A stretch of 31,800 bases of DNA from Chromera velia (taxonomy: Eukaryota > Sar > Chromeraceae), in assembly GCA_018398765.1 (NCBI GenBank), contig JAHBMJ010001124.1, forward strand, positions 4,567-36,366, in the 5' to 3' direction. Every line of letters begins with the position of its first letter. The first letter of the stretch is position 1. The notes under the pieces were generated by a model that saw only the letters and a program-made list of their open reading frames with translations, was not told the DNA's origin and ran no database searches. Both the position numbers and the translations under genes were made by a program. Below, in pieces: positions 1,190 to 5,832 of this stretch.

Positions 1190-3154
1190 TCAGGTGCCAT
1201 CGGGCTGCTTTGACAGTGAGGAGACGGGGACGGTCCGTTTGAATGCCTTTCCAATTATGGCCATGGGGAACAGCTGGTTGTTCTTTCCCTGCACAAGGAT
1301 GCCTGTGTAGCATTCCTGTGAAGCTGGTGGCACATCAGCCCCATGCTGCTCTGGGACTGCTGCCTGTCCATCGGCTTGCTGCACCCCCTCACCGGAGGCG
1401 TGACCATGCACCCCCTCATTGGATGCCTCTCCTTGGACAGGGGGGGCGGGAAGAAAATCATTCTGGGAGGACTCTTCAGAAGAAGGGGGAATGGCGTAGG
1501 GCTGCTGCTGTTGCGATTCGTTGCTCTCGGGGACCCATTCAGGCCCCCTCCAACATGCCACAATACCCCTCTTCACTGGCTTGACGTAGTGGGGATGCGT
1601 GTGAATGATGTCCCACACGTCACGGTTTGGTTGCTTTCGAGTCACGACAGCAAGGTTTTTGTTCTCCTCATAGAGCCACACAACCTCGCTGCGTAGAAGT
1701 TCGATTCCACTCTCTGCAATTCGCAACACACCCATATCTCCGCAGAGAAAATGGTAGGGAGGGTCAGAGCCGAAGGTTTTCTTCCATTGGGAGGTGCGAA
1801 GCACCTTGCTGTATGTTTTGGCTCTGGTGATGCTGATCCCTCTGGCCATATGACCCCAGAGGGATTTAGGGCATGAACCAAACCGGTGCTTCCATTCAGC
1901 CCGGAAGGCACCAAGCTCTGCTCTTGCATACCTGTTTTTCCCCTCTACAAAACCCAGAGCTCCTTTGATTCCAGATGGATAGTCCAAAAATCTCATTCCC
2001 CTTCGCTCTGCAAACGCTCCAAACTCCCCCCCTCGGAATTCAGGTGCATCGTCGCAACGGATGCGTGCTGCTACTGCCTTCAGCCCTTCCTTTTGGAATT
2101 GTACTCCCCCAAACGACTCAATAAAGTCGATATGCTCTTTGAACCCCTCGACGGACTGGTTTCGTGACCTGAGGGGGTAGTCAAGGTCAAGTCCCCCCCG
2201 TTCATCAATCACCCGCATGCAGCATTTGTGAGGCCCTGCCACCTCATCATCATTGGGAAACCAGTGATCAATCTGCATGATGTCGAAGGGCCCACCCGCA
2301 TCCTCATGTCGGGTGGGTACTGGAGCTAGAGTGGGCCCCGGGATGGTTGCGTTTTTGAGGGGACACAGTCGGCACTCTGTCTCAAGCCTCTTCCAGTCTT
2401 CACTCCTTGCCTGCATCCCCCTGCAGGCCAGTGTGGGCTCTAGCTTGTCTCTGCCCACGTGCCCGAATCTCCTATGTTCTGCCCTCAGTTCCTCAAACCC
2501 GATGGTGCGCAACCCCATAGCCCACACGCTCCCCTCATCTCTCATTGCTGCTGTTACTTCGTCAGTATGGGGAACAATGACGTCTGTGAACGGAAGGTTT
2601 GTTGTGCGGCCGTCTCCCCTTGGATTGTTAACGAGGATCTCCGCTAAGAACCCCCTGGCGTCCCTCACGACTACATATGATTCCTTCCCCTCTTTTCACA
2701 AAATCGTCTCCCCCTCAGCATCATCCTGTCTCATCAGATATGGCACTGGGTCGTGCGTCAGATAGACCATGACAAAAATGACTTGCCAGCCTACCCCTCT
2801 AACTTTGTATTTCTATGCAATGCATGCGAAACGGGAGATTCGGATCTTCTTTTCTGCCTTCTTGTGCATAAGCCCAAAAGACATGTCAGACGGCCTACTC
2901 TAGACAACCATTCCTCCCAGCTCTCTCTCCCATCCTATGGGTGCCGTGGTGTATGAGTCGATGTGCATCTGACAGCGTGCAGCAGGTCTGTATTGACTGA
3001 CCGATACTGACTTGTCTAGGGGTCTCGCGTCGTCTCCAGTGGAGTCCATCATGCAGGCATGGTGCTCCTTCACATCGACAAAGAATGGTTGGGGCGCACC
3101 ATCCCTCATCCGGAATGTCATGTGTGATGTCTGTCGAATTCCTCCCTCCACACC
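1190..3154 (-). pseudogene. Copia-type Pol: protease/linker region and integrase, with in-frame stops
   Basis: Integrase inserts the cDNA copy into host DNA. From the internal ATG at 2668 the frame is open for 492 codons. It starts with a gag-pre-integrase zinc site (His65, His70, Cys99, Cys102), followed by the catalytic core with Asp134, Asp206 and Glu242. The last two are separated by 35 residues, as expected of the DDE family. The C-terminal part is proline- and glutamine-rich. The same frame continues upstream through three stops (TGA 2698-2696, TAG 2815-2813, TAG 2902-2900) into sequence that still looks coding. It ends at another TGA, 1192-1190, beyond which the frame again looks coding. 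Tandem decay by point mutation is the simplest reading. Confidence 0.85.
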
Positions 3155-3418: not shown

Positions 3419-4465
3419 CTATGAATGGGGGCCTCCTCTGCCTCTGGAGTTGGATGTGGATGCTAGAGGGGTGTTTGCAGTGTCCCCCTTCTTCCTGCAC
3501 ACGCGTGGCCTGTGTCCGTATTTCCTACAGATCTCGCACGTGTATGTCTTCCCCGGACAATCATTCTTCTCAAGCCATTCTGGGTCATGCCCCCCTGCCT
3601 TGCTACACTTTAGGCAATCGTTTGGGTTCATTTCTTGGCCTCTCTCTTGCCCCCCATGACCTCCTCCTCGACCTGCCCCTGAACTGCCTCTTCCCCGCCC
3701 TCTGCCTCTATTCCCCCCCCTCGGAGGGAACCCAGCGCCACCGACAAAGGCAGCCTCCTGCTTGACGACTGCGGCTTTCTTCGTCTGAGTGATATTGTTG
3801 GTGGTGGCGGTCTGCCAGGCAGGCGGACCTCCTGCTGGTTCCGTGATGATGTTGGTTTGGGTCTTGGCTGCGAGCTTCTTTGCCTCTACAATCAATTTCC
3901 CGTAGTCGGACAGATCATCTTCATCCCAATCTGTCCCCAACATCCTCTGGTTGTAGGCAGAGAAACAGGCAAACACAGCTTCCCCTCTCAAGGAATCAGG
4001 CACGTCCTTTTCTCCCTTTGAGTCCTTCATCTCCTTCTCCAGTACCTCGAAGAAGTCGACAAGAAGTTGAAACGATGCGAAATCTCGGCCGTTATCCGCA
4101 AGCATGCGCCATTCATGCGCATTCTTTTTGGATTTGGCCTTCGCAGTTTCTTCAAGGAGCTGTTTGATTTTATCTAAAAGGGCATCCCTGTACTTGATCC
4201 AATCTATCTTCAGGGTGCCAGCATGTCAGAATGTCGTGTCATGGGAGTCATTCTTTGGATCGAAAAGATGTTGGATGGACTTTCCAACAATTGGATGCTT
4301 ATGAGTTGCCGAGTAGATTCTGCTTGCCTGCCATTGTGCAATATTTTCATCAGAGGCACCGAAGAGCTTTTCTGCCTCTTCTGTTTTCGATACGCACTGA
4401 TCCCACCAGGGTTTGAAGACCTGATCATTCTGTAGAACCGGAAACGTCGATCCCGACTCACTCAT
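3419..4465 (-). pseudogene. Copia-type Gag with two zinc knuckles, interrupted by a TGA
   Basis: Gag packages element RNA in cytoplasmic particles. The frame starts with ATG at 4465 and reads into a stop TGA at 4228-4226. It continues in the same frame through a helical capsid-like part to a TAG at 3421-3419. Counting from the internal ATG at 4105, an Arg/Gly-rich stretch lies near residues 125-155. A classical CX2CX4HX4C knuckle follows (Cys190, Cys193, His198, Cys203), with a looser Cys-rich motif just before it (Cys164, Cys167, then His173). Frame and protein character are the same on both sides of the TGA, so the stop looks like a point mutation rather than a gene boundary. Confidence 0.8.
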
Positions 4466-4797: not shown

Positions 4798-5077
4798 GTT
4801 TTATACTAGGTGTGATTTGTAAAGTTTTAAAGCGAAATAAAGTTTAAAGTCTGGTTTGAGTCTGTGGACTCTAAAATATAACTTTTGAAACGCACTTTAA
4901 ATTTTTTTTGATATACATTGAAAAATGTTTTAAAAGGCTCAACAATCCTAAACAACACATCAATGTATTCAAACTTTTTATTCTTAAAGTTTTAAAATCA
5001 AAGAAGTTTTAAAATCTAAAGTCTGTGGTCACACTTTATTATAAAAATAACTTTACAGATCATACCTAGGTTTTATA
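4798..5077. mobile_element. MITE-like DNA transposon with 21-bp TIRs and 8-bp target-site duplication
   Basis: The left terminal repeat at 4806-4826 (CTAGGTGTGATTTGTAAAGT plus T) and the inverted right repeat at 5049-5069 match at 19 of 21 positions. Immediately outside both lies the same 8-base word, GTTTTATA (4798-4805 and 5070-5077), as a direct repeat. The interior is AT-rich with further loose inverted symmetry and has no open reading frame. Perfect 8-bp duplications are typical of hAT-like superfamilies, but the terminal bases are not a textbook hAT end, so the superfamily is left open. The element is about 264 bp and must depend on a transposase made elsewhere. Confidence 0.8.
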
Positions 5078-5394: not shown

Positions 5395-5832
5395 TCAATA
5401 GTTGACAGCAGGCGCAGCAATGACGAAGATGTCTGAAATTCCTGGAAGGGACTCCAACTCCTTGAATCCATCATCGGCAGCAGACAGCGCATGCGAATGC
5501 CCCTCTTCCCTTTCCTCTCCCTCTTTACCGAAGAAGGGGAGCCAGAACGGTGAGATGTCCGTCGGCCTGATCGAAGGGGACATTGAGAGGAGCGCGGAAT
5601 CGATCAATCGTTCAAAGGGGACAGTGAGAGCGCGGAATCGATCGATCGTTCAAAGGGGACAGTGAGAGCGCGGAATCGATCGATCGTTCAAAGGGGACAG
5701 TGAGAGCGCAGAATCGATCGATCCTTCAAAGGGGGGGACCAGTGGAAAGAAATGCTCACACACACGCGTACACAGGACGAGGCTACTGGCACGCAGACAT
5801 GCCGACCCTCTCTCTCTCTCTCTCTCACGCAT

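Follow-up and report, generated by a model that had tools for sequence, protein, structure and literature searches.

A short segment bounded by inverted ends and identical flanks raises two questions in the window, by which we mean the whole stretch of 31,800 nucleotides of Chromera velia DNA that was analysed: what kind of element it is, and which transposase moved it. The segment is 264 bp long and carries the 8-bp sequence GTTTTATA, perfect, on both sides, and its left end CTAGGTGTGATTTGTAAAGTT is identical at 19 of 21 bases to the reverse-complemented right end CTAGGTATGATCTGTAAAGTT. The inverted ends and the identical flanks had been claimed in a sequence-only reading, and direct reading reproduced both. 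The element is a MITE: it is short, has no coding capacity, ends in 21-bp terminal inverted repeats (TIRs) and is present in many copies with target-site duplications. Its single-strand fold is better than that of dinucleotide shuffles, with a z of -4.9. The features of the locus are as follows.

4806..5069, plus strand: the whole MITE, 264 bp, non-autonomous (same ends in many dispersed copies; single-strand fold)
4806..4826, plus strand: left terminal inverted repeat CTAGGTGTGATTTGTAAAGTT (read directly; family pattern at 106 genome sites, 0 in the control)
5049..5069, minus strand: right terminal inverted repeat, CTAGGTATGATCTGTAAAGTT in the minus-strand reading (read directly; the same 106 sites, 0 in the control)
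4798..4805, no strand: left 8-bp target-site duplication GTTTTATA (direct reading and the duplications of the family)
5070..5077, no strand: right 8-bp target-site duplication GTTTTATA (direct reading and the duplications of the family)
3419-4225, minus strand: copia Gag-like frame (our own reading of the frames)
1190-2695, minus strand: copia integrase-like frame (our own reading of the frames)

The family, its duplications and its surroundings

The ends and flanks had been called hard to get by chance, and the counts across the genome bear this out. The exact end CTAGGTRTGATCTGTAAAGTT occurs at 54 + 52 = 106 sites in the 178-Mb genome (100 of them were listed), and the reversed pattern used as a control occurs at 0. 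The existence of a multicopy family with constant ends and varied 8-bp duplications had also been predicted, and such a family was found in the genome search. A DNA search with the MITE (178 Mb, 4040 contigs) gave 194 candidates, and the 40 copies scored among them were 85-100% identical, 29 of them spanning base 1 to base 264. Copies extending past the proposed ends had been named as the contrary outcome; in the 30 fetched loci, the flanks of which differ by eye, all 30 share one left terminal base and 27 share the right one, the right end being absent or interrupted in L005, L010 and L018. Pooling of the similarity search and the exact-end search gave at least 92 clustered loci, in which two long copies (C774 and C836) were each counted twice, and the copy and locus counts given here are lower bounds.

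The Kimura distance to the family majority, calculated for 39 copies no longer than 320 bp, ranged from 0.027 to 0.311 with a median of 0.063, and was 0.043 for the copy in the window. The family is not very recent. The outlier copies L040 and L108 may form a subfamily. No exact copy of the MITE TIR was found in viral contigs. In or beside two of the MITE copies there is a 135-bp repeat (L018 1743-1877 and L010 1738-1872, 95% identical), which is perhaps another small element family.

Target-site duplications were scanned in L001-L060, L082, L083 and L086-L117 by using pairs of ends that had up to 4 mismatches apiece; a locus was dropped if it lacked two such ends, as were ends too near the edge of a locus and repeats of one copy. 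In the 49 two-ended copies, the 8-bp flanks were perfect in 18, had one mismatch in 15, two in 4 and three or more in 12, giving 33 of 49 copies with a duplication of at most one mismatch. When the flanks were taken from different copies as a control, 2352 left/right pairs yielded 0 perfect matches and 2 with one mismatch. The length of the duplication is 8 bp, because the ninth flank base agrees in only 9 of the 33 copies, which is the chance level. Their base composition is 66% A+T, and they show neither a strong motif nor a clear one of the Ac type or the Buster type.

The sequence-only reading had placed the insertion directly upstream of a copia Gag. The position of the MITE agrees with this description, but an LTR-like repeat intervenes. 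From 4500 to about 4792, the window matches the end of a repeat that occurs in pairs; the two members are 5.8-6.0 kb apart on each of 14 contigs and 4.1 kb apart on a fifteenth (C2082); the copies of this stretch have 91-99% identity, 40 of the 73 candidates in the flank search being scored. The repeat is presumed to be the end of a copia LTR, and the LTR pairs on 14 contigs indicate that the copia family is abundant. The duplication of the MITE begins about 5 bp beyond this presumed LTR. Since what looks like the LTR separates the MITE from the Gag, the MITE seems to be outside the copia element. The left flank is the repeat, and the right flank matched itself alone among the 40 of 73 candidates scored. 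In an empty-site search with the joined flanks, no match elsewhere spanned the junction (again 40 of 73 candidates scored). Near the MITE, tandem 38-bp units with the sequence GAGCGCGGAATCGATC... occupy positions 5590-5734 of the window.

Long and lone-ended copies

An autonomous relative carrying a transposase had been suggested as another possible confirmation of the family. No such relative with the family's ends was found among the long and lone-ended copies examined; nor was any element with CTAGGTRTGATCTG ends and a recognisable transposase present among the loci that were read. Two long copies with the same ends, C774 (2227 bp) and C836 (4756 bp), might be taken as autonomous parents, as they have the family TIRs at both ends and 8-bp duplications matching at 8/8 and 7/8, respectively. 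However, MITE sequence flanks the insert on both sides in these copies, with the MITE split internally at about 108 and about 59, and the C836 insert has inverted ends of its own, CCCTAT(A/G)AAACTTTTA. No Pfam domain was found in 10 open frames tested from the two copies, and neither copy matched the pieces of the genome's hAT proteins. It is extremely improbable that they are the parents, and we rejected them as such; they are MITEs split by nested inserts at different positions. These ends bound the insert of about 4.5 kb that is nested in the MITE copy at L082 (446-4928), with an apparent 2-bp duplication, AC. There was no Pfam match in seven of its open frames, and it is another transposon family, without a class.

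Some TIRs stand alone. Among the first 30 TIR sites, 7 had no partner in 1.5 kb and were outside the 40 scored copies. One lone TIR, C875, has an inner part like the hAT-domain locus C3770 (75% over 960 columns), and it was dropped as a parent: the family TIR, with up to 6 mismatches allowed, is absent from the 9.4 kb fetched around the hAT domain of C3770. Another 32 exact-TIR loci had no listed partner; 12 of these were two-ended at up to 6 mismatches, and 6 of the remaining 20 match the MITE over just 26-74 bp at the end (L086, L099, L101, L102, L109 and the second site of L113).

Seven pieces of this genome's hAT proteins were compared by tblastn with 50,850 bases from 42 loci that were long or had a lone end, the 12 that proved two-ended included, and none matched at E 0.01. 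Likewise, a Pfam scan of 20 open frames from the lone-ended loci and the two long copies found no transposase. No match was obtained for 18 of the frames, and the weak, unrelated matches below the cut-off were Glyco_transf_34 at L058 and DUF4964 at L085. With one exception, the frames scanned were of at least 100 aa, some others being left out, and most of the fetched lone-end pieces extend just 0.5-1.5 kb or so inward. The test was therefore partial and may have overlooked an autonomous element.

hAT elements in this genome and the probable mover of the MITE

The hAT dimerisation domain (PF05699) has 21 matches in the genome, 14 of them above the cut-off. Comparison of copies separated group A from groups B, C and E, the ends of which are CAGGGTTGC, CATAGTTGCC and CAGTGCATTG, respectively; group C at L067 has the 8-bp duplication AATTAAGG in our own reading. 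Group A, hereafter hAT-A, has a DUF659 at C3246 (E 2.2e-22, and 1.8e-23 in the repeat scan) and a dimerisation domain (E 5.7e-9), and it starts with CCTAGGTG(C/T)ATCCTGGTAACTT. Its 5' end CTAGGTGNATCCTGGTAACTT, at up to 2 mismatches, was found at 59 sites including C3246, 6 of which have the rarer T form by our own count, and its 3' end CTAGTTGCATGATGG, at up to 3 mismatches, at 53 sites; the control was 0 for each end. Of 49 transposase matches, 44 have the 5' end upstream on their own strand at a distance of no more than 1.5 kb, most commonly exactly 255 bp. The ends form 41 pairings (at C304, C37, C62 and others) with a spacing of 350 to 2803 bp, and 40 of the 41 are within 1938 bp. At C3246, about 2.6 kb separate the contig start from the 5' end, and because these 40 pairings are shorter than this, the copies of hAT-A are mostly internally deleted.

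Both ends were fetched for 10 of these 41, and in them the 8 bp that adjoin CTAG on the outside differ at 4-8 bases. Counting one more terminal base at either end as part of the element gives perfect duplications in 9 copies and a 7/8 match in 1, the additional base being C before the element in 9/10 and G after it in 10/10. We conclude from these shifted duplications that hAT-A is a true hAT with 8-bp duplications and with ends CCTAG. L063, the one fetched locus that contains both ends of a group A copy, has no matching duplication by eye.

When the MITE TIR was aligned to the 5' end of hAT-A, CTAGGTG(T), AT, CTG, AA and TT were common to both. When each sequence in turn was shuffled 20000 times, 12 shuffles reached the score with the common form of this end, and 2 and 0 reached that with the rarer T form. 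In comparison, 823 and 848 of 20000 shuffles reached the score with the 3' end of hAT-A, and at least 11% of shuffles did so with the ends of groups B, C and E. Eight hAT ends were compared in all, and the best values are still small after multiplication by 8.

The sequence-only reading could name no superfamily with confidence. The superfamily can now be narrowed, short of proof, to hAT, because one hAT family of this genome resembles the MITE at its 5' end and makes 8-bp duplications. We consider it likely that the MITE was moved in trans by a transposase of the hAT superfamily. Such a transposase would bind the 21-bp inverted ends, excise the MITE and join it to target cuts staggered by 8 bp, and fill-in of these cuts would leave the 8-bp duplications. 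The observations on which we build this reading are the family, its ends, its duplications, a hAT family of the genome with a similar 5' end and 8-bp duplications, and the failure to detect a transposase in the copies that were read.

As a special case, hAT-A itself might have mobilised the MITE directly, by cross-mobilisation. The bases in common with its 5' end would agree with this, and among the hAT groups with visible ends that of hAT-A is the most MITE-like. However, there is a one-base offset between the hAT-A end CCTAG and the MITE end CTAG, the 3' end of hAT-A is a weak match to the MITE, and no similarity was seen beyond the TIR, in subterminal or in internal sequence. Direct mobilisation by hAT-A is thus unlikely in our opinion. 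The offset and the lack of likeness past the TIR point to a sister family, and the transposase of such a hAT relative, not that of hAT-A, was probably the mover; we infer both the superfamily and the sister relation from sequence.

The terminal consensus of hAT elements is YARNG. In the MITE, which begins CTAGG, the G at position 5 agrees with this consensus and the T at position 2 departs from it. The hAT ends of this host deviate from the consensus too, because hAT-A itself begins CCTAG. It could be argued that the mover belonged to another superfamily with duplications of about 8 bp, such as P, KDZ/Zisupton, Merlin or Mutator-like elements, and that the CTAGGTG likeness is a convergence. 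The length of the duplication does not by itself separate these superfamilies from hAT, and the MITE is unusual for a hAT in its second base T and in its offset from hAT-A. However, the MULE transposase domain (PF10551) has 0 matches in the genome and is positive in 4 of 14 control genomes; the KDZ and P transposase domains also have 0 matches, though 0 control genomes were positive for them either. Moreover, hAT domains are present in the genome and the likeness of the TIR to the 5' end of hAT-A beats nearly all shuffles. We regard a mover from these other superfamilies as quite unlikely, and a hAT transposase acting in trans is preferred.

Junctions, genome context and known systems

Some junctions are more complex than a simple duplication. 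At least two flank mismatches were present in 16 copies, and half of these reach 7/8 or better after a short offset (L003, L015, L017, L024, L038, L104, L105 and L110); with the offset allowed, 1.45% of pairs of flanks from different copies match as well as this. Even with an offset, the flanks of L005, L014, L018, L027, L031, L043, L106 and L108 have no duplication that explains them. The extra junction bases resemble repeats of the terminus in 7 of the 8 offset copies, the exception being L105, in our own reading. In seven copies other than the two described next, 2-10 extra bases in total, mostly such repeats, stand between the element and the target duplication.

In two copies the target duplication appears three times, in the order target-CTAG-target-MITE-target (L008 1481-1500) and target-CTTA-target-MITE-target (L028 1481-1500), such that a tandem 12-bp unit made of the target duplication and CTAG or CTTA directly precedes the MITE. 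The right side of L049 is partly similar to this structure. A third target copy within 16 bp was also seen at L011, L021, L029, L045 and L116, several of which are low-complexity or A+T-rich. A control on upstream positions 30-400 gave 24 matches in 12210; it was slightly stricter, using the left duplication only, than the test, which used the better of the two duplications on both sides.

These junction features are few, and replication slippage could be their cause. A 4-base stagger at the MITE end, with self-annealing via CTAG, could also be the source of many of the junction duplications. It is very unlikely, in our estimate, that the family's transposase, or the repair that follows it, has an unusual way of processing the CTAG palindrome at the terminus. 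To our knowledge, such a stagger would be new for a hAT-like element, and the junction duplications, if confirmed, would provide insight into the cutting and repair of hAT-like ends.

The genome has 28 matches to light-harvesting proteins, which suggests a photosynthetic host; two of these proteins had no more than distant relatives among the solved structures listed. A size of 193.66 Mb in 5953 scaffolds was reported for the Chromera velia genome (PMC4501334). Class II elements are named once in passages of that paper, and 'MITE', 'hAT' and 'DNA transposon' are absent from its main text as whole words; because the supplementary tables are outside this text, the family may be listed there. Our literature searches matched other transposons only. 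The MITE forms a new family, ordinary in type and probably related to hAT. The genome of Chromera velia thereby gains a MITE family with clear boundaries, along with several hAT families, and since the candidate movers form a narrow set, the parent element can be sought.

Non-autonomous hAT elements include the Ds-like elements and hATN. The MITE differs from these and from other hAT MITEs in that it ends in CTAGG instead of the consensus and that an autonomous partner with identical ends was not found, but it is like them in being short and gene-free, with TIRs, 8-bp duplications and many copies, and in having a similar-ended hAT transposon in its own genome. Compared to the MITE, hAT-A has one extra terminal base, a dissimilar 3' end, and a DUF659 with a hAT dimerisation domain. 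Nevertheless, its 5' end, (C)CTAGGTG(C/T)ATCCTGGTAACTT, resembles the TIR of the MITE, and 8-bp duplications are found in both.
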